From Streptococcus suis (GTDB lineage Bacteria > Bacillota > Bacilli > Lactobacillales > Streptococcaceae): a stretch of DNA of 64,000 nt. The notes below the pieces were generated by a model. The model searched no databases. It saw only the letters and a program-made list of their open reading frames with translations, and was not told the origin of the DNA. Of this stretch, positions 22,591 to 34,551 are shown piece after piece. Position 1 is the stretch's first letter, and every line of letters starts with the position of its first letter. Both the position numbers and the translations under genes were made by a program. Where the stretch lies: contig CP031970.1 in the NCBI GenBank assembly GCA_022354845.1, positions 682,001 to 746,000 of the forward strand. The letters are read 5' to 3'.

Positions 22591-25026
22591 ATGAGGTTAG
22601 CACATCTTGAAAAAAGAGACATAGAAAGTCGGTTTCAATATCTAGAGGACCACCTGTTCAATGTTGCGATGGGGGCCAAAGTCCTTACAGATACGATTGG
22701 CCAAGGGGATATTTTGTTCTTACTAGGACTTTATCATGATTTGGGCAAGAGTGAAAGACTTTTTCAGAAAAAAATGAAAGAGGAGCCAAATCTACACGTC
22801 GATCATTCGTATGCAGGAGCCCGTTACCTATTTCAAGAGATTGAGCAAGTCTTTCAACGATCGGGGAGAAACCCAAACGATGCCCAGCTTTTTCGTGAAA
22901 TAATAGCCTACATTATATCTGCCCACCACGGTGTGTATGACGTCCCTCTACCTGAGGATATGGAAGGAGCAGGTAGATATCGGTATAGTAAGTTATTCTA
23001 TCGGATTGGCCAGCCACGAGCAGACTATCATTATGAAGAAGATATAAAGGCCTATGCCAAGTTATTGGAAGAACAGCTACCTAGCTTTGGCTATCAAAAT
23101 GTAGATGATTTAGTTATGAAATCATTTGAAAATTTTCAAACCGCTTGGGCGAAGTTATGCATCAATGATGATAGCGAATCGGCTTTTTATAGTTCTTGTT
23201 TTATTCGGCTCTACCTGTCTTATTTGAAGAATGCGGATATTTTGGATACGATTAATGCCTATGACCTTGTTATCGAGCCAAAAACTACTGAGGAAAATAG
23301 TGAACTTGTTCAGAAGTATTTTCAATCAGTAGAAGAAGTTTATGCAGGTTTTGGAAATCCAACTACCGAACTTAACCGTATTCGAACGGCCTTGGGAGAG
23401 CGTGTTAAACATCGTGGTGCTACGGATTCTTCAGGCATTTATCGCCTCAATCTTCCGACGGGTACAGGTAAAACTAATCTGTCGCTTCGTTACGCTATTC
23501 ATCAACTGACACAGAAAGGTAAAAATCGTTTCTTCTACATGACGCCCTTTTTGTCCGTTTTAGAACAAAATGCAGCAGCGATTCAGGAGATTATTGGCAA
23601 AGAAGGTGTCTTGGAGCACCATTCTAATCTAGTCAGAGAACAACAAGATGCCACACCTCAAAATGAGGAGTATGGAGAGGAAACTGTCAATAGTCTAATG
23701 ACAGATTACCTGATTGATACCTGGGATAGCCCAGTTGTCCTTACCACCATGGTTCAGTTCTTTCAAACCCTCTTTAAGACCAAGTCAGCTAATATCAGAC
23801 GCTTCTCCAACTTAGCAAACAGCGTCTTGATTTTAGATGAAGTCCAATCCCTCCCCATTGAGGTCACTACGCTTTTTAATCTGACCATGAATTTTTTGAG
23901 TCGTGTCATGGGGGCTACAGTTGTTCTCTGTACTGCGACTCAACCTGCCTATGATTCGGTTTCCATAAGCCACCGACTATTATATGGTGGGGAAATAGCA
24001 GAGCAGGCAGACATTGTCACCTTAACCGCTGAAGAACAAGAGGTCTTTAAGAGGACAGAACTCCGCAAGTTTGATGAAAGCAATGCAATTTCCCGATTGA
24101 CTGACCTGGCAAGTTTTATCTTGGAAGAAGAAACTTCTACGCTTGTCATTCTCAATACCAAACCAGCAGTAGAAAAACTATATAGCCTATTAGAATTCCA
24201 AACAGACAGACCACTTTATCACCTCTCAACCAATATGTGTGCCCAGCACCGTCTTGATGTTATCCAAGAAATCAAAAAGCAGTTGAAAGACGATGTTCCT
24301 ATAATTTGTATTAGTACGCAATTGATTGAAGCAGGAGTGGATGTTGATTTTGAGCGAGTGGTTCGATCTTATGCTGGACTAGATTCAATTGTTCAAGCAG
24401 CTGGCCGTTGTAATCGTGAAGGAAAACGTGATGTAGGTCAGGTAACATTGATAAATTTATCCAAGGAAGAAGAAAGCCTCACCTATCTTAAAGAAATCAA
24501 GCATAAAAAAGAGGCGACTGAGAATATTTTGATAAAAGAAACGTCACCAATTGAAGTTGGGGCCTTAAATCTTCTATTTTTTGAACGTTACTATGCCGAC
24601 AATACAAAACAATTTGATTACCCACTGTCTACCAATGAATCTGTCTATGACTATCTCAGCTTAAGTAGCTTCAAAGGAAGTCCGAACTGCAAAGTCAGAC
24701 AGTCGTTCAAGACTGCAGGGCAGAAAATGGATTTAATCAAAGATGATAGTATTGGTGTCCTAGTTCCATATGGTGACGGAGTGGATATAATCGCTGACTT
24801 GGAAGAACTTTTGGTAGATACTCCCTATCCAAGAGGCCAGGATTTAGTTGAGATTAAACAAATTCTCAAGAGTTTGCAGCCTTTTACAGTCAATCTGAGA
24901 AAGTATGACAGTCGGCTACAAGCAATCCGATATTATTTGGAGGGAAAGGTCTTAATACTGCAAGAAGAGTATTATGATGACGAAAAGCTTGGATTAAAAA
25001 AAGAGGCAAACCTTCCTATCTTGTAA
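22591..25026 (+). CDS. cas3: Cas3 helicase-nuclease, type I-C
   Basis: 811 aa with an HD nuclease domain then a superfamily 2 helicase. HD residues: H21 (EDHLFNVA), H49-D50 (LYHDLGKS), H78 (DHSYAG) and ISAHHGVYD near 109-117. Helicase motifs: LPTGTGKTNLS (about 288-298), LILDEVQSLP (about 414-423), TATQP, and motif VI-like VQAAGRCNREG near 606. It degrades DNA bound by the I-C Cascade. Normally the I-C genes cas5c-cas8c-cas7c follow with little spacing; here a 465-bp gap holding a regulatory module separates cas3 from cas5c. The stop codon lies in the loop of a hairpin that may belong to that module. Confidence 0.97.
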   Translation: MRLAHLEKRDIESRFQYLEDHLFNVAMGAKVLTDTIGQGDILFLLGLYHDLGKSERLFQKKMKEEPNLHVDHSYAGARYLFQEIEQVFQRSGRNPNDAQLFREIIAYIISAHHGVYDVPLPEDMEGAGRYRYSKLFYRIGQPRADYHYEEDIKAYAKLLEEQLPSFGYQNVDDLVMKSFENFQTAWAKLCINDDSESAFYSSCFIRLYLSYLKNADILDTINAYDLVIEPKTTEENSELVQKYFQSVEEVYAGFGNPTTELNRIRTALGERVKHRGATDSSGIYRLNLPTGTGKTNLSLRYAIHQLTQKGKNRFFYMTPFLSVLEQNAAAIQEIIGKEGVLEHHSNLVREQQDATPQNEEYGEETVNSLMTDYLIDTWDSPVVLTTMVQFFQTLFKTKSANIRRFSNLANSVLILDEVQSLPIEVTTLFNLTMNFLSRVMGATVVLCTATQPAYDSVSISHRLLYGGEIAEQADIVTLTAEEQEVFKRTELRKFDESNAISRLTDLASFILEEETSTLVILNTKPAVEKLYSLLEFQTDRPLYHLSTNMCAQHRLDVIQEIKKQLKDDVPIICISTQLIEAGVDVDFERVVRSYAGLDSIVQAAGRCNREGKRDVGQVTLINLSKEEESLTYLKEIKHKKEATENILIKETSPIEVGALNLLFFERYYADNTKQFDYPLSTNESVYDYLSLSSFKGSPNCKVRQSFKTAGQKMDLIKDDSIGVLVPYGDGVDIIADLEELLVDTPYPRGQDLVEIKQILKSLQPFTVNLRKYDSRLQAIRYYLEGKVLILQEEYYDDEKLGLKKEANLPIL

Positions 25027-25036
25027 GGTAAGATAG
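25016..25036 (-). other. Hairpin at cas3 stop, candidate second pseudo-repeat
   Basis: CTATCTT (25016-25022) and AAGATAG (25030-25036) form a 7-bp stem with a 7-base loop. On the minus strand it starts about 35 nt after the degenerate repeat's guide, within the 32-36 nt range of real spacers, exactly where a second repeat hairpin would lie. About 10 nt further on the minus strand is a run of seven T, so it might instead act as a weak terminator for the guide RNA. Confidence 0.4.
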
Positions 25037-25039
25037 AAA

Positions 25040-25107
25040 GATCTGCCAGTCTTTGTGCTATAACACTTAACTATATTTCAATCCACATGGACACATACCA
25101 TGATGAC
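25040..25107 (-). ncRNA. crRNA-like guide RNA (CreA/CreR-like)
   Basis: On the minus strand, 25107-25075 is a degenerate CRISPR repeat: it begins GTC, forms a stem CATGG/CCATG around TATGTGT, and ends GTGGATTGAAAT, identical to the last 12 bases of the array repeats (the 5' handle region made by Cas5c). The array stem GCACCC/GGGTGC is replaced by a different but still paired stem. The guide begins at 25074 with ATAGTTAAGTGTTAT and matches ATAGTAAAGTGTTAT in the divergent promoter (25162-25176), with TTC as adjacent PAM. Only the first 15 bases match, which should allow Cascade binding but not cutting. Predicted role: Cascade-dependent repression of the promoter at 25169-25197. The 3' end is uncertain. 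Confidence 0.75.
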
Positions 25108-25110
25108 TTG

Positions 25111-25139
25111 ATTATACCACAGATAATAGTCCCTTTCAA
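25111..25139 (-). promoter_or_regulatory. Promoter of the crRNA-like guide RNA
   Basis: On the minus strand: TTGAAA (25139-25134), 17-bp spacer, TATAAT (25116-25111) with TG one base upstream (extended -10). The expected start point falls at the first few bases of the degenerate repeat, so the RNA needs almost no leader. Confidence 0.8.
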
Positions 25140-25161
25140 AAAATGAAGACCTTTAATAAAA

Positions 25162-25179
25162 ATAACACTTTACTATGAA
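25162..25179. promoter_or_regulatory. Target site of the crRNA-like guide, with TTC PAM
   Basis: On the minus strand TTC (25179-25177) is followed by ATAGTAAAGTGTTAT (25176-25162). It matches guide positions 1-15 except position 6, a position that is flipped out and tolerant of mismatch in type I Cascade. TTC is the established I-C PAM. The site covers the -35 hexamer of the rightward promoter. Confidence 0.75.
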
Positions 25180-25197
25180 TAGTAAAAGTGGTAATAT
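25169..25197 (+). promoter_or_regulatory. Rightward promoter for small ORF and possibly cas5c operon
   Basis: TTTACT at 25169-25174, a 17-bp spacer, TAATAT at 25192-25197. The match to consensus is moderate. Transcription would begin just before the strong AAGGAGG at 25212-25218. No U-rich intrinsic terminator is evident before cas5c. Confidence 0.6.
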
Positions 25198-25235
25198 ATA
25201 GATATAACATTAAGGAGGAACTTCTATAGAAGTAT

Positions 25236-25337
25236 ATGATTCAACTAATATACAAATTGTTGGAGCGCTTACCAGGTATTCTAACGGCCGTAGCTTATCT
25301 GGTTGTTGCCTTTCAATCGGGAAATAAGAACAAGTAG
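25236..25337 (+). CDS. 33-aa hydrophobic peptide, candidate CRISPR-repressed toxin
   Basis: ORF of 33 codons: MIQLIYKLLERLPG, a hydrophobic stretch ILTAVAYLVVAF, then QSGNKNK. A single membrane-spanning or amphipathic helix with a basic tail resembles the general form of small type I toxins and holin-like peptides; I do not recognise the family. The strong AAGGAGG (25212-25218) is 17 nt from the ATG, but between them the perfect palindrome CTTCTATAGAAG (25221-25232) can fold and bring the site to about 5 nt. Its promoter is the target of the divergent crRNA-like RNA, the defining arrangement of CreTA modules. It could also be a leader peptide for the cas operon. Translation is unproven. Confidence 0.5.
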   Translation: MIQLIYKLLERLPGILTAVAYLVVAFQSGNKNK

Positions 25338-25370
25338 TTTTTGTCATTAAAAAATTACTTTTAAGAGTTA

Positions 25371-25414
25371 GTCAGTGGTTACTGTAGTTGAAGGCTATAG
25401 TGACCACCGCTGGC
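25371..25414 (+). other. Long hairpin between small ORF and cas5c
   Basis: GTGGTTACTGTAG (25375-25387) pairs with CTATAGTGACCAC (25395-25407) over 13 bp including two wobble pairs. GTCA and TGGC extend it across a 3-base bulge. No T-run follows, so it is not a simple terminator. It could stabilise or process the transcript, or limit read-through into cas5c. Confidence 0.55.
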
Positions 25415-25491
25415 TATCCTGTTAGTTAGGTTGTACATTTCTGTTGTAGTCTATCTTTACTATATTTAAAAAGAAAAGGAGGAACTTGATT

Positions 25492-26229
25492 TTGTATCGT
25501 TCACGGAATTTTTACCTGCGGGTGAAGGGTGATCTGGCTCTCTTTACGAATCCTGCGACCAAGGGTGGTGGAGAAAGGTCAAGCTATGCCGTTCCTACTC
25601 GACAGGCCTTAAAAGGTGTGGTGGATGCGGTTTACTATAAACCAACCATTACAAATGTTGTGACAGAAGTGAAGATTGTCAATCAAATTCAAACGGAGCT
25701 TCACGGAGTCCGAGCCTTGTTGGCTAATTATGGAGCTGACTTAAGTTATGTTTCTTACCTTAGCAAAGTGGAATACCTGGTCAAATTTCACTTTATCTGG
25801 AATGAAAATCGCCCAGATTTAGTACACGATCGTTTGCCCAACAAACATGAGGCGATTATGGAAAGGTCTATCAAAAAAGGCGGGCGACGAGATGTCTTTC
25901 TTGGAACCAGGGAATGTCTTGGTTTAGTTGAAGCCATTAGCCAGGAAGATTATGAAACAGCTGATGTCAAATATGGAGATGTCACCATCGACTTTGGAAT
26001 TATGTTTCATTCATTTGCCTATCCAACAGAGTCTAATCAACCGCTTCGTTCCTATTTTACAAGGACCGTCATGGAAAACAGTGTCATACGGTTTAAGGAG
26101 CAAGAAGACTGCGAGATTGTGAACACACTTTCAAATTATGTTTTCAAGACTTCGGGAGATATCAAGTTAGTAGAAGAAGAATTTGAGATATACTCACGAG
26201 ATCAAGAAAATGAGGAAGGAGGTCGCTAA
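25492..26229 (+). CDS. cas5c: Cas5c (Cas5d) crRNA endonuclease/Cascade subunit
   Basis: 245 aa using TTG 25492, nine bases after GGAGG (25478-25482); an in-frame TTG at 25486 is only three bases from that site. No ATG is available near the conserved start YRSRNFYLRVKGDLALFTNP. The RAMP-fold protein cleaves pre-crRNA in I-C systems, where cas6 is absent, leaving the ATTGAAAT-type handle. The bases AAGGAGGAACTT around its ribosome site recur at 25212-25223 in the upstream module. Its stop overlaps the cas8c start (TAATG). Confidence 0.93.
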   Translation: MYRSRNFYLRVKGDLALFTNPATKGGGERSSYAVPTRQALKGVVDAVYYKPTITNVVTEVKIVNQIQTELHGVRALLANYGADLSYVSYLSKVEYLVKFHFIWNENRPDLVHDRLPNKHEAIMERSIKKGGRRDVFLGTRECLGLVEAISQEDYETADVKYGDVTIDFGIMFHSFAYPTESNQPLRSYFTRTVMENSVIRFKEQEDCEIVNTLSNYVFKTSGDIKLVEEEFEIYSRDQENEEGGR

Positions 26230-28121
26230 TGGATTTCTTTACAGCACTTTTACGGGCTTATGAAGCAGCCGAGGACACGGGATGGGTAGACAATGCTCAA
26301 AAATCAACTAGTCCCCTCCTACCGATTTACCATACCAGTCGTCGTTCAAATGGGAAGGACACGATAGCTATTCTACTAGACAATGAAGGAAACTTCATGA
26401 AGGCAGACTTTATGGCTGATGGCGAGAGTATCATCTTTCCGGTGACTTCTGACTCGGTGGCTCGTTCGGGGAAAAATCCAGCTCCGCACCCGTTGGTTGA
26501 TAAATTGACTTACTATCTTTCAGAAATAGACCAAGGACAGTATGATGCCTATCATCGTCAGTTAGATGAATGGATTTCCCAGTGTCAGGAACAAGAAGTT
26601 AAAAGATTTTTGAGTCATATCCAGCGTTTTCTGTTACAGGATGACTTTATAGAGAAGATTGTCCAGTCCCTCTATGGTAGAGTAACCAGTAGAGAGGGAT
26701 TAAAAGTAACTTTTCTGAACAGTGATGATAGTGAAAAGACTATTGACCTATCGACTGCTTTTCTGGAATTTAAAATTGATCAATTCATAGGGTATCAAAC
26801 CGTTTCTGTTACCAACTATTTGGACTTACATAAGGCTTACATTTCCTATGTGGAATCGAATCAGCAAGCAGATATCATCTGTAATATTAGTGGGAAACAA
26901 GAAGTGCTGGCTGCCAAGCACCGCGGATTGATAGGAAATGCCAAATTGATTTCCGTCAGCAATAACATTGAAACCTATAAGGGACGCTTCAAGCAACGAG
27001 AGGATGTCTTTACCGTTGGGAATCAGACTTCGGAAAAAATTCATTTAATGGCAAAATTTTTGTTGGAGAATGAACATACCCACGCATGGCTAGGGTCAGG
27101 ACAGCATTTAATCAACTGGTTTAGTGATGATTTGTCCAATGAGACACAATTAGATATCACCAGTCCAAAAGTGGAAGATAATGGAATGTTTGATTTTGGA
27201 GAAACGTCTTCAGATGATAGCCCAAAATTTCAAGTAACAGAGGTAAATAAGAAAATCCGCTCTGCCTTTATCCATGGTAAAAAAGAATTTGGTGACGGAG
27301 CGACTTACTATGTTGCTATCGTTAACAAGACCAATGATGGTCGTGTTGCCCTTAAATACTTTAGACAGCTAGCTGCCTCTCAACTACTAGATAATCTCAA
27401 TAAATGGCAGGACAGGTATTCTTGGCAATTTAAGAAGCAAAATGGAGAGTATGCGGAGTGTCCACCGAGTTACCAGGATATTGTTTTAGCGGCCTATGGT
27501 GTAGATAGAGGTCGATTCTTGGAACTAGACAACGACAAGTTCAAGAGTGATCAGTTCCAAAAGTTAGCTACAAGCATGATTGATGGGAAAGATATTCCGG
27601 ATACGATTCTTGGTAAATTAAAAGACAATATCAAGCAACGTCAGAGATATGGGAACACATGGAACAAGGTATTATTTGTTTCCTTGGCCCTTTTACATAA
27701 AACTAATAAGGAGGAGTTTACACCGATGTTAGACCACGAGAATAAGGATCGTTCCTATTTGTTTGGACGATTATTGGCGATTTTTGAATTGTTAGAGCTT
27801 CAACGGTATCAGTTAGACGGTTCAAAAAATGATCGCATCACGAATGCGGAACGTTATTGGAATGCCTATACAAGTCAGCCAGCTAAGCTGATGATGAATT
27901 TAACCAATAAAATCAAACCTTACGAAGAAGCAGTAAAGTTAAACAGTCCTGGTATTTTTAATAAATTAGAAAAAGAACGGGAAGAAATCATGGTGTTATT
28001 AGGGCCTTTGATGCAAGAACGTGGAATCAATGACCCATTAGACTATCGCTTTATATTTGGTTATTATGCTGAGAAGCAATACTTCTACACAAAACAAGAA
28101 AAAATTGAAAGTGAGGAATAA
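26229..28121 (+). CDS. cas8c: Cas8c (Csd1) large Cascade subunit
   Basis: 630 aa, typical for Csd1. It begins MDFFTALLRAYEAAEDTGWV; phrases such as LLPIYHTSRR and RFLELDNDKFKSDQFQKLAT fit the family. It recognises the PAM and, through an internal start within its 3' part in many I-C systems, also yields the small subunit Cas11c. Position overlaps cas5c by one base and ends three bases before cas7c. Confidence 0.95.
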   Translation: MDFFTALLRAYEAAEDTGWVDNAQKSTSPLLPIYHTSRRSNGKDTIAILLDNEGNFMKADFMADGESIIFPVTSDSVARSGKNPAPHPLVDKLTYYLSEIDQGQYDAYHRQLDEWISQCQEQEVKRFLSHIQRFLLQDDFIEKIVQSLYGRVTSREGLKVTFLNSDDSEKTIDLSTAFLEFKIDQFIGYQTVSVTNYLDLHKAYISYVESNQQADIICNISGKQEVLAAKHRGLIGNAKLISVSNNIETYKGRFKQREDVFTVGNQTSEKIHLMAKFLLENEHTHAWLGSGQHLINWFSDDLSNETQLDITSPKVEDNGMFDFGETSSDDSPKFQVTEVNKKIRSAFIHGKKEFGDGATYYVAIVNKTNDGRVALKYFRQLAASQLLDNLNKWQDRYSWQFKKQNGEYAECPPSYQDIVLAAYGVDRGRFLELDNDKFKSDQFQKLATSMIDGKDIPDTILGKLKDNIKQRQRYGNTWNKVLFVSLALLHKTNKEEFTPMLDHENKDRSYLFGRLLAIFELLELQRYQLDGSKNDRITNAERYWNAYTSQPAKLMMNLTNKIKPYEEAVKLNSPGIFNKLEKEREEIMVLLGPLMQERGINDPLDYRFIFGYYAEKQYFYTKQEKIESEE

Positions 28122-28124
28122 AGA

Positions 28125-28976
28125 ATGTTGGAACAGAAAATTGATTTTATGGTAACCATTGAGGTGCGTGAGGCCAATGCTAATGGCGATCCCTTATCAG
28201 GAAATATGCCACGTACGAATGCAAATAACCAAGGGATTATTAGTGATGTTGCTATTAAGCGAAAAATTCGCAATCGTATGCAGGATATGGGGCATTCTAT
28301 TTTTGTCCAGGCAAATGATCGGATTGAAGATGGCTTAAATTCTTTAGAAAAACGCTTCAAAGCTCAATTTTCTGGAAAAGAATCAGATGAGGAAATCAAT
28401 GAAAAAGCTAATCAAATCTGGCTAGATGTACGCTCATTTGGTCAGGTCTTCACGTATTTGAAGGATCGCTCTTTTGCTATCCGTGGACCAGTTTCTGTTA
28501 GCATGGCTCATTCGTTAGAACCTATTATCATTTCTAGTTTGCAGATTACTAGAAGTACAAATGGTGTGGAACCTAAGAAAGCAGGAGGTCGTTCTTCTGA
28601 CACCATGGGAACCAAGCATTTTGTAGATTACGGTGTATATATTGTAAAAGGGTCTATCAATGCTTATTTTGCAGAGAAGACAGGCTTTACGGCGGAAGAT
28701 GCGGAGGTCTTGAAAGAAACTCTAATTACCCTATTTGAAAATGATGCATCATCAGCTCGCCCAGAAGGTTCAATGCGTGTTCGTGAAGTTTTCTGGTTCA
28801 CTCATTCCAATAAACTGGGCAATGTTTCTAGTGCACGCATCTTCGACTTGTTAGAATTTGATAAGGAAAAGCAAGACAAGTCAAGCTATGAAGAGTATGC
28901 GATTGGACTGAAGCAGAAAGAGCTGGCTGAGTTTCAGGCTAAGGGATTGAAAGTTGATATTTTAGAAGGATTGTAA
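28125..28976 (+). CDS. cas7c: Cas7c (Csd2) Cascade backbone subunit
   Basis: 283 aa RAMP-family protein: DFMVTIEVREANANGDPLSG near the start, SFGQVFTYL and IRGPVSVSMAHSLEPI in the middle, and DYGVYIVKGSINAYFA near 160-175. Six or so copies line the crRNA in Cascade. It follows cas8c after three bases, with GAGGAATAAAG overlapping as ribosome site. Confidence 0.96.
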   Translation: MLEQKIDFMVTIEVREANANGDPLSGNMPRTNANNQGIISDVAIKRKIRNRMQDMGHSIFVQANDRIEDGLNSLEKRFKAQFSGKESDEEINEKANQIWLDVRSFGQVFTYLKDRSFAIRGPVSVSMAHSLEPIIISSLQITRSTNGVEPKKAGGRSSDTMGTKHFVDYGVYIVKGSINAYFAEKTGFTAEDAEVLKETLITLFENDASSARPEGSMRVREVFWFTHSNKLGNVSSARIFDLLEFDKEKQDKSSYEEYAIGLKQKELAEFQAKGLKVDILEGL

Positions 28977-28977
28977 G

Positions 28978-29649
28978 ATGGCCTATGCAGAAGATGATTA
29001 TTTGATGTTGTCTGGTATTCAACATTTTCAGTTCTGCAAACGTCAATGGGCCTTGATCCATATTTATCAAGAATGGGCTGAAAATGAGGCAACCACTCAC
29101 GGTCAGTTTCTTCATCAAAAAGCTGACAATCCCTATATCAAAGAAAAACGTAAGGATTTCTTGATTTCTAGGGCGATGCAGGTATCGTCTAAGGAGTTAG
29201 GGCTTTACGGGATTTTGGATGTTGTGGAATTCCATAAAGATGAGGCAGGTATTTCACTGAGTGGAAAACGTGGTAAATGGATTCCAACTATCGTTGAATA
29301 CAAGCGTGGTAAGCCGAAAAAAGATGAACGGGATATTGTTCAATTGGTGGCACAGACCATGTGTTTAGAGGAAACACTGGCTTGCAAAATTGATACGGGC
29401 TATCTGTACTATCATAGTGTCAATAAAAAAGTAGAAATTAGCATTAGTGCTGAATTGAGGCAGCTGGTTGTTGAATTAGCTAGACAAATGCATGAACTTT
29501 ATCAGAAAAGAGATTTGCCAAAGGCTGAGTATTTTAAGAATTGCCAACTTTGCTCACTGGTAGATATTTGTATGCCTAGATTGAGTAAAAAATCGCGTAG
29601 TGTTGCTCATTATATCCAACAATCCATGGCAAGCGAGGAGGGGTTATGA
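28978..29649 (+). CDS. cas4: Cas4 exonuclease
   Basis: 223 aa. Four Fe-S cysteines are visible: C20 (HFQFCKRQW) and C189, C192, C198 (NCQLCSLVDIC). Nuclease motifs include the GILDVVEF acidic motif and VEYKRGKPKKDE near 104. It helps select PAM-bearing prespacers with Cas1-Cas2. It overlaps cas1 by four bases. Confidence 0.95.
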   Translation: MAYAEDDYLMLSGIQHFQFCKRQWALIHIYQEWAENEATTHGQFLHQKADNPYIKEKRKDFLISRAMQVSSKELGLYGILDVVEFHKDEAGISLSGKRGKWIPTIVEYKRGKPKKDERDIVQLVAQTMCLEETLACKIDTGYLYYHSVNKKVEISISAELRQLVVELARQMHELYQKRDLPKAEYFKNCQLCSLVDICMPRLSKKSRSVAHYIQQSMASEEGL

Positions 29650-30671
29650 AGAAACTGCTGAATACACTCTATCTGACTCAGGAAGATTTTTATTTGACTA
29701 GAGAGCGGGACAACATTGTCATTAAGCAAAATGGCGTTGCTGTTCACCGCTTTCCCTATCGCATTATAGACGGTATTGTGTGTTTTTCCTATCTAGGAGC
29801 CTCTCCGTCATTAATTGAACTGTGTGCGGAACATCAGATTAACCTTTCTTTCCATACACCTCAAGGGCGATTTTGTGGCCGGTTTGTAGGTCCGACGAAT
29901 GGAAATGTTCTGTTAAGACGGCAACAGTATCGCCTAGCTGATGATGATTTGTCTCTGGAATTTGCCAAACGTTTTATTCTGTCTAAAATCTCTAATTCCA
30001 GAAAATACCTATTGCGATTTCGTAGAGATCATAAAGATAGGGTGGATGGGAATCTATTTGAAGAGGTCAATTCAGAGCTGACTTGGGCAGTGGAAATGGT
30101 TCAAACAGCTTTAGATAAGGAGACACTACTTGGAATTGAGGGGCAAGCAGCGAATCACTATTTCCGCTTATTCAATGAAATGGTTTTGGCTGATAAGGAG
30201 ACGTTTCAGTTCAATGGTCGCAGTAGAAGACCTCCGTTGGACTGTGTGAATGCCTTGCTTTCCTTCGGTTACAGTCTGTTGACCTATGAATGCCAATCAG
30301 CAATTGAAGCGGTTGGTCTGGATAGTTATGTTGGATTTTTCCATACAGACCGTCCTGGTCGTGCGAGTCTGGCTTTGGATTTAGTTGAGGAATTTCGTTC
30401 CTTCATTGTTGATCGGTTTGTATTTTCCTTAATCAATAGAGGACAGTTAACGAAAAAGCATTTTGATATCAAAGAAAATGGAAGTGTTTTGTTGACTGAA
30501 AAAGGCAGAGCAGTTTTCATTGAAGCCTGGCAAAAGCGAAAACATACAGAAGTTGAGCATCCATTTACCCAGGAAAAAGTCAAATTGATGTTATTGCCCT
30601 ACGTTCAGGCACAATTGCTTGCAAAGGCTGTTCGAGGCGAGTTGGACAGTTATCCTCCGTTTATGATATAG
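29646..30671 (+). CDS. cas1: Cas1 integrase
   Basis: 341 aa, type I-C Cas1. Conserved residues: EGQAANHYFRLFNEM (catalytic Glu, about 160-174), FFHTDRPGRASLALDLVEEF (His and Asp, about 231-250). It integrates prespacers at the leader-repeat junction. It overlaps cas4 by four bases and lies 10 bases before cas2. Confidence 0.97.
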   Translation: MKKLLNTLYLTQEDFYLTRERDNIVIKQNGVAVHRFPYRIIDGIVCFSYLGASPSLIELCAEHQINLSFHTPQGRFCGRFVGPTNGNVLLRRQQYRLADDDLSLEFAKRFILSKISNSRKYLLRFRRDHKDRVDGNLFEEVNSELTWAVEMVQTALDKETLLGIEGQAANHYFRLFNEMVLADKETFQFNGRSRRPPLDCVNALLSFGYSLLTYECQSAIEAVGLDSYVGFFHTDRPGRASLALDLVEEFRSFIVDRFVFSLINRGQLTKKHFDIKENGSVLLTEKGRAVFIEAWQKRKHTEVEHPFTQEKVKLMLLPYVQAQLLAKAVRGELDSYPPFMI

Positions 30672-30681
30672 GAGCTATATT

Positions 30682-30975
30682 ATGATGGTATTAGTGACCT
30701 ATGATGTCAATACAGAAACAGTAGCTGGACGAAAGCGATTGAGACAAGTAGCCAAGCTGTGCGTTGACTTTGGTCAACGTGTGCAACATTCTGTCTTCGA
30801 ATGTTCAGTCGCTCCAGCAGAATTTGTTGAGTTAAAGAATAAGTTGCTGGAAATCATTGACAAGGAACAGGATAGTATCCGCTTTTATTTGCTAGGAAAA
30901 AACTGGCAAAATCGTGTGGAAACGATTGGACGAGATACTAGTTATGATCCTGATCAAGGAGTCCTCCTGTTATAG
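30682..30975 (+). CDS. cas2: Cas2
   Basis: 97 aa. Ferredoxin-like fold with MVLVTYDVNTETVAGRKRL (first strand with the Asp of TYDV) and FGQRVQHSVFECSV. Length and motif are typical of I-C Cas2. A second Met codon follows the first; ATG 30682 has AGGAGC upstream. Last cas gene before the leader. Confidence 0.96.
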   Translation: MMVLVTYDVNTETVAGRKRLRQVAKLCVDFGQRVQHSVFECSVAPAEFVELKNKLLEIIDKEQDSIRFYLLGKNWQNRVETIGRDTSYDPDQGVLLL

Positions 30976-31120: not shown

Positions 31121-33190
31121 GTCGCACCCTACACGGGTGCGTGGATTGAAATTTGAAACGTGTAGCATATCAGCTATTTCTTCCCGTCGCACCCTACACG
31201 GGTGCGTGGATTGAAATAAGTTCTAAGGACTCGGGAAAATCCTAATAAGCTTGTCGCACCCTACACGGGTGCGTGGATTGAAATTTAATACCATTTGAAC
31301 CCAGACCACAATCAAGACCGTCGCACCCTACACGGGTGCGTGGATTGAAATAAGTAGTTATCGGAATTTTTAAAGTAAGACGATTGTCGCACCCTACACG
31401 GGTGCGTGGATTGAAATATTTAATAACATTTTAAGCACCACGCCAAAAGCGTGTCGCACCCTACACGGGTGCGTGGATTGAAATCAATTTAGCTGGCCTC
31501 ATCTTAAGATGCCTCATGTCGCACCCTACACGGGTGCGTGGATTGAAATTACAATATCTATACCGTCATCAGTCATGTGTTCGTCGCACCCTACACGGGT
31601 GCGTGGATTGAAATATGGTAACGATAACGAGACCAACAGACGTCGCGAGTCGCACCCTACACGGGTGCGTGGATTGAAAGATATCGTCGGGCTATGACGA
31701 TCACTAGGACAGGTCGCACCCTACACGGGTGCGTGGATTGAAATTCTTTGTCGTCTTTCTTTTTAGTTTAAAATAGGGTCGCACCCTACACGGGTGCGTG
31801 GATTGAAATCAATCTATTGTTTTGCTGTTGGGCTAGACGTCCAGTCGCACCCTACACGGGTGCGTGGATTGAAATATTTTATGATTTTATCACTGAAAAA
31901 ATACCTGAGTCGCACCCTACACGGGTGCGTGGATTGAAATAGTCGAGCAGATCCATATTGGCAAGGTGGATGAGTCGCACCCTACACGGGTGCGTGGATT
32001 GAAATAGTGTCAGCTATGGCAAGAGAGGACGAAAGCAAGGTCGCACCCTACACGGGTGCGTGGATTGAAATATTTTATATTTAAAGTCTTAATATTTATG
32101 CTACGTCGCACCCTACACGGGTGCGTGGATTGAAATTCTTGAGCATTTTGAGAGTTTTTAATCCGGTAGTGTGTCGCACCCTACACGGGTGCGTGGATTG
32201 AAATCAACTGCGCCAATCCAACTCGCCAATACACGTCAGTCGCACCCTACACGGGTGCGTGGATTGAAATTACCTTATAATCTGAACTATATAAAATACC
32301 ATTGTCGCACCCTACACGGGTGCGTGGATTGAAATAACATGTGTGCTAAACAACTTGAAGCCTTGAGAAGTCGCACCCTACACGGGTGCGTGGATTGAAA
32401 TATTCTCACGTATCTTACGTGATCCAAAAACTGGACGTCGCACCCTACACGGGTGCGTGGATTGAAATCATTTTCTAACAACTCTGCAGTACACTCGTTT
32501 GAGTCGCACCCTACACGGGTGCGTGGATTGAAATTAGCAGACAATCGGGGGTAAGTTTTAATTTATACAGTCGCACCCTACACGGGTGCGTGGATTGAAA
32601 TCGTAGAGTGAACTCAAACTCTTCTGTGAACGAGGGTCGCACCCTACACGGGTGCGTGGATTGAAATTCGATCTCGGCAAGCAGATTCGACTTTGTAGAA
32701 AGTCGCACCCTACACGGGTGCGTGGATTGAAATTCTAAAACGGCAATTTTACAAAACGCCCGACAAGTCGCACCCTACACGGGTGCGTGGATTGAAATAC
32801 TCCTTTTATTTACGACTAACCCAAGACTCCTGTCGCACCCTACACGGGTGCGTGGATTGAAATTTGCACCATTGGTTGTCCTGTGGTTGGTGTCATGTCG
32901 CACCCCACATGGGTGCGTGGATTGAAATTTGCACCATTGGTTGTCCTGTGGTTGGTGTCATGTCGCACCCCACATGGGTGCGTGGATTGAAATTTGAAAA
33001 ATGTTGCTAAACCATCAAGGACGTTCCCGTCGCACCCCACATGGGTGCGTGGATTGAAATATTTTTTTCCTCCTTTGTTTTTTTCCTGGTCACGTCGCAC
33101 CCCACATGGGTGCGTGGATTGAAATTTGTCTGTTGCTCTACTTGTCCGCTTATATTTGGTCGCACCCCACATGGGTGCGTGGATTATAGA
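31121..33190 (+). CRISPR. Type I-C CRISPR array, 32 repeats and 31 spacers
   Basis: 32-bp repeats begin GTCGCACCC, contain the loop TACAC and arm GGGTGC, and end GTGGATTGAAAT. Start positions run from 31121 to 33159 at 64-68 bp intervals, giving spacers of 32-36 nt. Repeats 1-27 have loop TACAC; repeats 28-32 (from 32897) have CACAT. Repeat 9 ends in G instead of T; the last repeat is degenerate after GTGGATT. Spacers 27 and 28 are identical, so there are 30 distinct spacers. Frames of up to about 110 codons inside the array are artefacts of the repeat. The spacers' targets cannot be determined here. Confidence 0.98.
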
Positions 33191-33355: not shown

Positions 33356-33640
33356 ATGGCAAAACATTATGACAAGCAGTTCAAATTGGACGCAGTGCAA
33401 TATTATCAAGATCACAAGAATCTTGGTCTACAAGGCTGCGCATCGAATTTAGGTATCAGCCAGCAAACTCTTTCCAGATGGAAGAAAGAGCTAAACGATA
33501 CTGGGAATATAGAACACCGTGGTTCCGGCAATTACTCTTCTGATGAGGAAAAAGAAATTGCTAAATTAAAGCGGGAGCTACGCGACACCCAGGATGCACT
33601 AGATGTATTAAAAAAAGCCATCAGCATTCTGGGAAAATAA
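33356..33640 (+). CDS. IS3-family transposase OrfA
   Basis: 94 aa helix-turn-helix protein: FKLDAVQYYQDHKNLGLQGC, LGISQQTLSRWKKEL, then a leucine-zipper-like tail (EIAKLKRELRDTQDALDVLK). Seven A residues at about 33611-33617 (TTA AAA AAA G) form a slippery site for -1 frameshifting, which would fuse it to OrfB as the active OrfAB transposase. Confidence 0.92.
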   Translation: MAKHYDKQFKLDAVQYYQDHKNLGLQGCASNLGISQQTLSRWKKELNDTGNIEHRGSGNYSSDEEKEIAKLKRELRDTQDALDVLKKAISILGK

Positions 33641-33717
33641 CAGAAGCCATTTATCTTGAGGTTTCTGAAAAGACAGAAATAGCTAAAAAGCAAAACCGCC
33701 GAGTTTCTGTCTCTGGA

Positions 33718-34551
33718 ATGCTGAAAATCTTAGGCGTATCAAGATCTGGTTATCATGCATGGCTAAAACATGTACCTTCCAATATGCAAAAGCGTAAGGA
33801 AGCGGTTAAAACCAAAATAAAGGATATTTACAACGAATCAAAACAAAACTACGGAGCCCCCAAAATCACCAAGGAACTACAAAAGGATGGTGAAATCATC
33901 GCTGAACGAACGGTGGGCAAATATATGCGAGAAATGGGCATCAAAGCCCAGTGGATAAAACCCTGGACCATTACCACCAAAGACTCCGACTTTAGTAAGG
34001 AACTTCAAAATATCCTTGACGAACAATTCAACCCTGACCGCCCCAATGCCGTTTGGTGTAGTGATATCACCTACATTTGGACAGCCGAAGGCTTCGCCTA
34101 TCTAACTAGCATCATGGACCTATTCTCCCGAAAAATCATTGCCTGGACGCTCTCCAAAACAATGGAAGTATCCTGTGTAATTGAAACTATAACCAAAGCT
34201 AAAGCAAGACGTCAAACGGATTTACCTTTGATTCTTCATAGCGATCGCGGAAGTCAATACGTTTCCAAGGAATATCGCAAAGCAACCGATAAAATGCAAC
34301 TAAGCTACTCCAAGAAAGCCTTTCCTTGGGATAATGCCTGCATAGAATCCTTTCACTCCTTGATTAAACGGGAATGGCTCCATCGCTTCAAAATCCAGAA
34401 TCATGCTCATGCACATAAACTCGTATTTGAATATATTGAATGCTTTTACAATACGAAAAGAATTCACGGCCACTGTGATTTTATGTCGCCGAATGATTTT
34501 GAAAAGTTGTATGCAGAAGCACAAAAAGACAATGAGCAATTAGCAAGTTAA
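33718..34551 (+). CDS. IS3-family transposase OrfB (integrase domain)
   Basis: 277 aa from ATG 33718; the frame is open further upstream and joins OrfA by -1 frameshift at the A7 run. DDE catalytic residues: D in VWCSDITYIW, D in LILHSDRGSQYVS, E in NACIESFHSLIKRE. An HTH_21 region precedes (YGAPKITKELQKDGEIIAER). The element looks intact and possibly active. Confidence 0.92.
   Translation: MLKILGVSRSGYHAWLKHVPSNMQKRKEAVKTKIKDIYNESKQNYGAPKITKELQKDGEIIAERTVGKYMREMGIKAQWIKPWTITTKDSDFSKELQNILDEQFNPDRPNAVWCSDITYIWTAEGFAYLTSIMDLFSRKIIAWTLSKTMEVSCVIETITKAKARRQTDLPLILHSDRGSQYVSKEYRKATDKMQLSYSKKAFPWDNACIESFHSLIKREWLHRFKIQNHAHAHKLVFEYIECFYNTKRIHGHCDFMSPNDFEKLYAEAQKDNEQLAS

Follow-up and report, generated by a model that had tools for sequence, protein, structure and literature searches.

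The stretch of DNA analysed here (the window) comprises 64,000 nucleotides of a Streptococcus genome that is assembled as one contig of 2,026,249 bases. The window holds a complete type I-C CRISPR-Cas locus on the plus strand with the gene order of that subtype, which consists of cas3 (22591..25026; PADLOC Cas3c, 2.9e-180), a gap of 459 bp, cas5c with a TTG start (25486..26229; PADLOC Cas5c, 5.7e-85), cas8c, cas7c, cas4, cas1, and cas2 (26229..30975, the frames being open in all), and the CRISPR array with the repeat GTCGCACCCTACACGGGTGCGTGGATTGAAAT (31121..33190). Of the named Cas5c proteins, the closest come from S. plurextorum DSM 22810 (96%) and S. suis strain 614 (94%). The crRNA of type I-C systems is processed by Cas5c and not by Cas6, and the Cas5c of the window is presumed to be both a Cascade subunit and the processing nuclease. 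A pattern search found 31 array repeats, of which 30 share the 12-nt end GTGGATTGAAAT and one ends in G. An extra terminal repeat near 33159 is altered after GTGGATT. The array exhibits one duplicated spacer, and four of the pattern-found repeats at its far end (32864-33190) have the variant CCCCACATGGG. Two ORFs 3' of the array (33356-34551) are presumably an IS3-family transposase pair.

The cas3-cas5c gap carries a crRNA-like gene on the minus strand. Its promoter, TTGAAA-17-TATAAT with an extended -10 (25111..25139), is present as the sequence-only reading of this DNA had described it; it has 11 of 12 consensus letters and TG before the -10. The promoter is followed by a degenerate repeat (psiR, 25075..25102) that consists of the stem CATGG/CCATG closing a 7-nt loop and the handle GTGGATTGAAAT (25086-25075). 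The handle is the same 12-nt end that the resident array repeats have; this identity and the re-paired stem had both been claimed and both are present in the sequence. The guide ATAGTTAAGTGTTAT (25074-25060) adjoins the handle, and its working part is taken as positions 1-16 (25059..25074) according to the extent of pairing in 23 loci with a target, as described below. An intrinsic terminator with an 18-bp stem and a U tract (24995..25047, minus strand) overlaps the 3' end of cas3 and starts 28 nt into the guide; the sequence-only reading had missed it, as it had the peptide ORF described below. The 18-bp terminator hairpin (25047-25005) just after the guide is the one found where 0.3 were expected. 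The whole guide RNA folds with -34.2 kcal/mol (z -4.09). The window thus has a single psiR and then a terminator, and not the two divergent psiR that are a usual, if not universal, trait of CreTA.

The target of the guide is located at 25162..25176 of the minus strand and matches the guide at 14 of 15 positions. The PAM TTC (25179-25177) lies directly at guide position 1 and the sole mismatch is at position 6, so that the PAM and the mismatch that the sequence-only reading had reported are both found. This is the one site in the 64-kb window, the guide itself aside, that matches the guide at 13 or more of 15 positions (minus 25176-25162). When the gap was shuffled 20,000 times with its dinucleotides preserved, no shuffle reached 14/15 with TTC, and the best one reached 12/15. 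TTC together with seed positions 1-5 and 7-11 has a single occurrence in the 2,026,249-base genome, which is the target. A creA-like gene with a psiR and with PAM-adjacent spacer pairing at positions 1-5 and 7-11, as in CreTA, is therefore present. The targeted promoter on the plus strand, TTTACT-17-TAATAT with TG before the -10 (25169..25197), has 8 of 12 consensus letters plus the extended -10; it is weak by consensus and falls below the threshold of the promoter scan. Its -35 box TTTACT (25169-25174) lies inside the target, so the claim that the target covers the -35 box stands for the window.

The distribution of this arrangement was surveyed with Cas5c searches, which identified 26 of 284 Streptococcus genomes (the genome of the window included) and 32 of 395 Lactobacillales genomes. 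Thirty loci were taken from the latter; two of them were streptococci already counted, and the 28 non-streptococcal loci that were examined include one without usable upstream sequence. A psiR with the handle [TC]GGATTGAAAT is present on the minus strand 3' of cas3 in 19 of the 26 streptococcal loci, and the other seven have no psiR unit. All 19 streptococcal psiR loci have a TTC-flanked target in the gap that matches 13-17 of the first 18 guide letters (14/17 where a contig end cuts the guide). The non-streptococcal Lactobacillales have a psiR in the gap of 5 of the 28 loci and a target in four of these five. The exception, G313, has a psiR without a target, and shuffles equal its best match in 180 of 300 cases. 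The clostridial loci L058-L063 were checked for the handle only and none was found.

Of the 24 repeat-bearing loci, 23 thus have a TTC target that matches the guide at 12-15 of 16 positions, and in these 23 the observed match was reached by 0-3 of 300 shuffles per locus. Only 5 of 466 swapped pairs of guide and region (with at least 5 differences among the 16 guide positions) reach at least 12/16. The guides exhibit 16 distinct 11-letter starts among the 24 loci, which are related and not independent, seven of them sharing one start. Guide and target changed together in S. merionis (guide ATCATACTTTG, target ATCATTCTTTG) and in G049 (guide AGAATGGGATG, target AGAATTGGAAG). S. plurextorum, with a Cas5c that is 96% identical, has the very different guide TATGTTTTTAT and a target, TATGTATATAT, that is different to match. 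Position 11 of S. didelphis differs from the seven same-start loci in guide and target alike. The psiR stem also varies on both sides (CATGG/CCATG, CATAG/CTATG, CATC/GATG, and CATAAC/GTTATG); it was detected by script in 22 of 24 loci and missed in G582 and G597. Terminators after the guide were detected by script in 17 of the 19 streptococcal psiR loci, one of the misses being a contig-end cut, and promoter-like boxes are likewise kept across psiR loci. S. pseudoporcinus (L047 / L012) has a full psiR stem that looks like a canonical I-C repeat, with a second repeat-like palindrome nearby, as if its unit was derived from, or replaced by, a minimal array.

The co-variation of handle, seed, and target across cas3-cas5c gaps had been set as a test by the sequence-only reading, with independent divergence of seed and target as the outcome counting against it. 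The guide letters change while 23 of 24 loci keep the TTC target, and independent divergence is not seen in these 23 loci; G313 is the exception. The proposal of a streptococcal type I-C version of CreTA or CreR is supported at the level of sequence by these co-varying pairs. It is generally known that repeats decay beside cas genes, and G313 would fit a dead relic of an old array. However, PAM and seed are kept in 23 of 24 loci while the letters change, and promoter-like boxes and terminators are kept as well. A chance match or a relic was rejected at the sequence level on the basis of this co-variation and of the 0/20,000 shuffles, and we give it a negligible chance. The solitary repeat might also be a decoy that sequesters Cas proteins in the manner of phage Racr RNAs, which it resembles in being a single repeat unit (PMC10651486). 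A decoy needs no target, however, and we rejected this very improbable explanation because the guide is constrained jointly with its target. We assign a probability of roughly 0.83 to the reading of the gap as the gene of a crRNA-like guide with one repeat, which would regulate in the manner of CreA/CreR and serve a type I-C system, and we consider the guide-target circuit close to settled. The seven streptococcal loci that lack the unit and the target-less G313 count against this reading.

The mismatches in the 23 loci with a target are unevenly distributed along the guide. Positions 1-5 and 7-11 have 8 mismatches in 230 comparisons, positions 13-16 have 9 in 92, and positions 17-22 have 90 in 133. 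Position 6 is mismatched in 15 and position 12 in 18 of the 23 loci. Because of these counts, positions 6 and 12 look unconstrained and pairing appears to end at about position 16.

The streptococcal loci were divided into three classes. Class A consists of 10 loci, including the window, with psiR, target promoter, and a peptide ORF ahead of cas5c. Class B consists of nine loci with psiR and a target promoter directly 5' of cas5c without an ORF; the distance from the -10 to cas5c is 29-30 nt in eight of them and 96 nt in S. merionis. Class N consists of seven loci with neither psiR nor ORF and with gaps of 46-132 bp. The psiR is kept in 10 of 10 ORF loci against 9 of 16 ORF-less loci (hypergeometric 0.017, relatedness ignored). 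The Cas5c tree places class A and S. merionis (class B) on one side, at a fork with support of only 72/90. Scraps of guide and handle remain in the class N gap of G111, and scraps of promoter in that of G211, as would be expected if a deletion had removed the unit from these two loci. In the non-streptococcal loci G582 and G597, 51-65 nt separate the target promoter from cas5c, and none of the three frames holds a peptide of this kind. The stretch from target promoter to peptide ORF of S. thoraltensis (L055, 4840-5343) carries what we take to be fragments of a decayed transposase, and the stretch from target to cas5c of the non-streptococcal psiR locus G290 (L074, 958-1197) carries a short ORF that is presumably the start of a DUF4062-type protein.

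The position of the target relative to the promoter differs among these loci, the predicted -35 positions in relatives being the best consensus match only. Target and -35 overlap in the window and in the two loci most closely related to it. The -35 begins 10-12 nt past the target, with the PAM side toward it, in 11 of the 19 streptococcal loci; it is 3-4 nt from the target in two loci, and on the other strand at 14-16 nt in three. Repression is therefore less obvious in the 11 loci with the -35 beyond the target, where Cascade may activate rather than repress.

The targeted promoter of the window is followed by an ORF of 33 codons, MIQLIYKLLERLPGILTAVAYLVVAFQSGNKNK (25236..25337, plus strand), which is conserved in 10 loci. 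Its Shine-Dalgarno AAGGAGG (25212..25218) is 17 nt ahead of the ATG, so that a mini-ORF with a Shine-Dalgarno, as in CreTA, lies under the targeted promoter at 25212-25337. A small hairpin ACTTC/GAAGT between the Shine-Dalgarno and the ATG appears in the minimum-energy fold only, and the whole fold is not significant (z -0.35). The ten peptides have 33-45 codons, the core (F/I)QLL.KL...LPAIL.A.A.L, and a basic tail; P and I alone are invariant and two A are nearly so. The dN/dS is 0.07-0.33 in 10 within-group pairs, and the other two frames of the peptide DNA exhibit no excess of synonymous change. From its sequence, the peptide is judged to be under purifying selection. The start codons were assigned by inference; the likely in-frame starts are mostly weak and consist of AUC in three loci, UUG in three, and AUA in two, one of these two being S. 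suis 614, which also has the AUG of the window. The frame of the S. pseudoporcinus peptide is open and its clear Shine-Dalgarno is lost; a reading of this ORF as broken was dropped on account of the open frame.

A further structure, an RNA hairpin without a U tract, lies between the peptide ORF and cas5c (25366..25415; z -3.6 and -4.7). The corresponding z is -4.0 in S. plurextorum, -1.7 in S. suis 614, and -1.9 to 0.6 in seven others. A general role for this hairpin was dropped because only the window and S. plurextorum have it in strong form.

The five peptides that were scanned matched no family of Pfam or NCBIfam at E up to 1. When the peptide profile was searched against the 284 genomes, the strong matches (E up to 1.8e-16) comprised all ten class A loci and nothing else, and 12 other genomes gave weak matches (6e-6 to 0.009). 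Six weak-match sites from five genomes are ORFs of 48-51 codons, several of which lie near genes that we take to be phage endolysins; G226 (L117, L118) carries two sequence-identical copies of a presumed phrog_3399-type peptide, each near such an endolysin-like gene. Two phage-type peptides that were scanned match phrog_3399 (1.1e-31 and 5.7e-28). This family is also the best, if weak, match of all four CRISPR-linked peptides scanned (4.4e-4 to 0.07; 0.012 for the window), and the pairwise profile comparison of CRISPR-linked and phage-type peptides gave 96.8% probability. The phage-type peptide was found in 20 streptococcal phage records, adjoining lysA in PH10, and in no plasmid record. The CRISPR-linked peptide of S. 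plurextorum has no match among phage records at E up to 10. On sequence comparison, the peptide is likely to be a relative, though a distant one, of the streptococcal phage family phrog_3399. The phage-type copies are unlike the CRISPR-linked peptides in their strong Shine-Dalgarno, AUG/UUG starts, and length of 48-51 codons.

These elements suggest the following mechanism. A minus-strand RNA would start near 25104, fold into the degenerate repeat stem that Cas5c would cut, and end at the terminator starting 28 nt into the guide. The guide would be loaded in Cascade (Cas5c, Cas8c, and Cas7c), and its first 16 nucleotides would bind the TTC-flanked site on the divergent promoter with positions 6 and 12 free to mismatch. 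The target is expected to be spared from Cas3 because there is no pairing beyond position 16. Bound Cascade would shut the promoter of a transcript that would carry the small phage-related peptide ORF first and then, probably, cas5c-cas2. If Cascade blocks that promoter, it would repress its own operon, and the peptide also in the ORF-bearing loci; the level of the peptide would rise upon loss or block of Cascade. The promoter scan of the window gave no other plus promoter above threshold from the ORF to cas5c, which makes it probable that the peptide and cas5c-cas2 are controlled together. The same scan misses the targeted promoter, and a weak separate promoter for cas5c is therefore possible. 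Read-through from cas3 is a possible basal supply of cas5c-cas2.

The sequence-only reading had left two functions open, toxin repression or the tuning of cas expression. Both architectures were found, with nine streptococcal loci that target a promoter before cas5c and 10 that have the peptide ORF between them. The circuit of class B is most simply read as cas autoregulation with the logic of CreR. The same may hold for the window: the guide would only tune cas5c-cas2 in a feedback of CreR type, and the peptide ORF, as a leader or a bystander cistron, would influence how the operon is translated or how stable its RNA is. This explanation comes near to even odds. The nine ORF-less loci and the peptide-less G582 and G597 agree with it, as do the lack of a further above-threshold plus promoter from the ORF to cas5c in the window and the hairpin that the window and S. 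plurextorum have 3' of the ORF. However, a leader need not conserve amino acids, and this peptide is conserved across a wide range and has phage relatives.

The alternative, a phage-derived peptide that acts on membranes as a toxin, is plausible at somewhat worse than even odds. The toxin would be held by Cascade and the guide, and the loss or inhibition of Cascade would free it and stop the cell, which is addiction of the CreTA type. The purifying selection on a peptide that is limited to regulated loci, its distant kinship to a family that adjoins lysA in a phage, and its small, hydrophobic or amphipathic form with a basic tail argue for addiction. So does the retention of psiR in all ORF loci noted above, and weak or distant starts would curb leakage. 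The gene gap is also the same as that of the Acinetobacter I-F CreTA (PMC10097628). However, the hydrophobicity of the peptide is ordinary, since a value of 1.6 is attained by 11% of 1139 same-size stop-to-stop frames of the window, and two of the ten peptides do not exceed 1.0-1.2. Moreover, phrog_3399 itself is without known function, and the Shine-Dalgarno is lost in S. pseudoporcinus.

The decay of cas genes bears on both explanations. One of the 10 class A loci and one of the nine class B loci have a Cascade gene (cas5c, cas8c, or cas7c) that is divided between two frames, and none of the seven class N loci does. These numbers are small, and several of the genomes with split cas genes are drafts. 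The class A case is cas8c of S. uberis CAIM 1894 (L048 6702-8623), which is in two frames through a frameshift or a draft-assembly error and which keeps its ORF nonetheless; the class B case is cas8c of G020 (L096 4325-6250). Other split or interrupted genes are cas1 in S. henryi (class A; L043 10158-11168) and G111 (class N), and cas3 in G018 (class B) and in G175, G036, and G164 (class N; L095, L100, L101, and L102 in all). The cas4 of G036 (class N) has one stop. Broken Cascade genes in 1 of 10 loci with the ORF against 1 of 16 without it do not suggest any protection of Cascade genes by the ORF. This pattern agrees with CreR-type feedback and, as far as the sequences tell, lends addiction no support.

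The toxic product could instead be the RNA itself, acting as a rare-tRNA or initiation trap, with the ORF being incidental. The known CreT toxins are mini-ORF RNAs of this kind (PMC8501985, PMC10097628). However, the in-frame peptide is under apparent purifying selection while synonymous sites vary, and we regard an RNA toxin as improbable. A KilA-N protein toxin as in CrePA was rejected, as the gap has no long ORF and the peptide has no Pfam match.

In a tentative scenario, which we put at about one chance in three, the unit is a CreR-CreTA hybrid. One streptococcal lineage would have captured a phage peptide, which became the leading cistron under a promoter that Cascade represses, and what had been feedback on the effector operon would have turned into a module for addiction and anti-CRISPR alarm. 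The states of this scenario stand side by side in the sister loci without the ORF and in those that have lost the unit. Sisters with and without the ORF offer a way to test the step from cas autoregulation to a locus that may be guarded. The phage kinship of the peptide also prompts the question of whether phage genes are co-opted as CRISPR guards.

The findings in this work extend the self-regulation of Cascade, as read from the loci, to type I-C in 19 streptococcal and four other Lactobacillales genomes. The co-varying pairs of guide and target amount to a natural mutational scan, from which sequence alone recovers the free positions 6 and 12 and the regulatory pairing of about 16 nt. The cas3-cas5c gap is the place to look for such units. 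A search of the literature by title and start of abstract, with subscription papers largely outside its scope, found no type I-C or streptococcal version of the CreR/CreA type. The promoter before cas3 in the I-C locus of S. mutans UA159 (PMC10434267) does not conflict with the circuit.

Comparing the window to known systems, CreR has been described for types I-B, I-E, and V-A in the part of a review drawn on here (PMC13131331), in which type I-C is absent from the subtypes named. The window shares with CreR a predicted crRNA-like RNA from a mini-CRISPR beside cas that carries the handle of the resident repeat, a partial match to a cas promoter, and the presumed logic of autorepression. The CreR-type position of the promoter, directly before cas5c, is found in the nine ORF-less streptococcal loci, whereas the window adds a conserved peptide ORF between promoter and cas5c. 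CrePA, with the KilA-N protein toxin CreP, is alike in having a phage-derived protein under the control of CreA (PMC12737573); a KilA-N gene is absent from the gap of the window, where the candidate is instead a peptide that belongs, distantly, with phrog_3399. The Acinetobacter I-F CreTA has the same position between cas3 and the first Cascade gene, a mini-ORF with a Shine-Dalgarno divergent from creA, and a target 5' of the ORF, and it differs in its two psiR, 33-bp ORF, and PAM CC from the one psiR and PAM TTC of the window (PMC10097628). The CreTA of H. hispanica has one psiR and a terminator as in the window, and that of H. hubeiense has a six-codon RNA toxin where the window has a conserved peptide ORF of 33-45 codons with a putative effect (PMC8501985). 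Processing is by Cas6 in these haloarchaeal type I-B systems and is predicted to be by Cas5c in the window. Mutagenesis of the H. hubeiense type I-B CreA found positions 1-5 and 7-11 essential and positions 6 and 12 free, with the PAM TTC (Cheng et al. 2021, PMC8501985). The psiR, the seed at 1-5 and 7-11, the free positions 6 and 12, and the PAM TTC are common to the haloarchaeal and the streptococcal loci.
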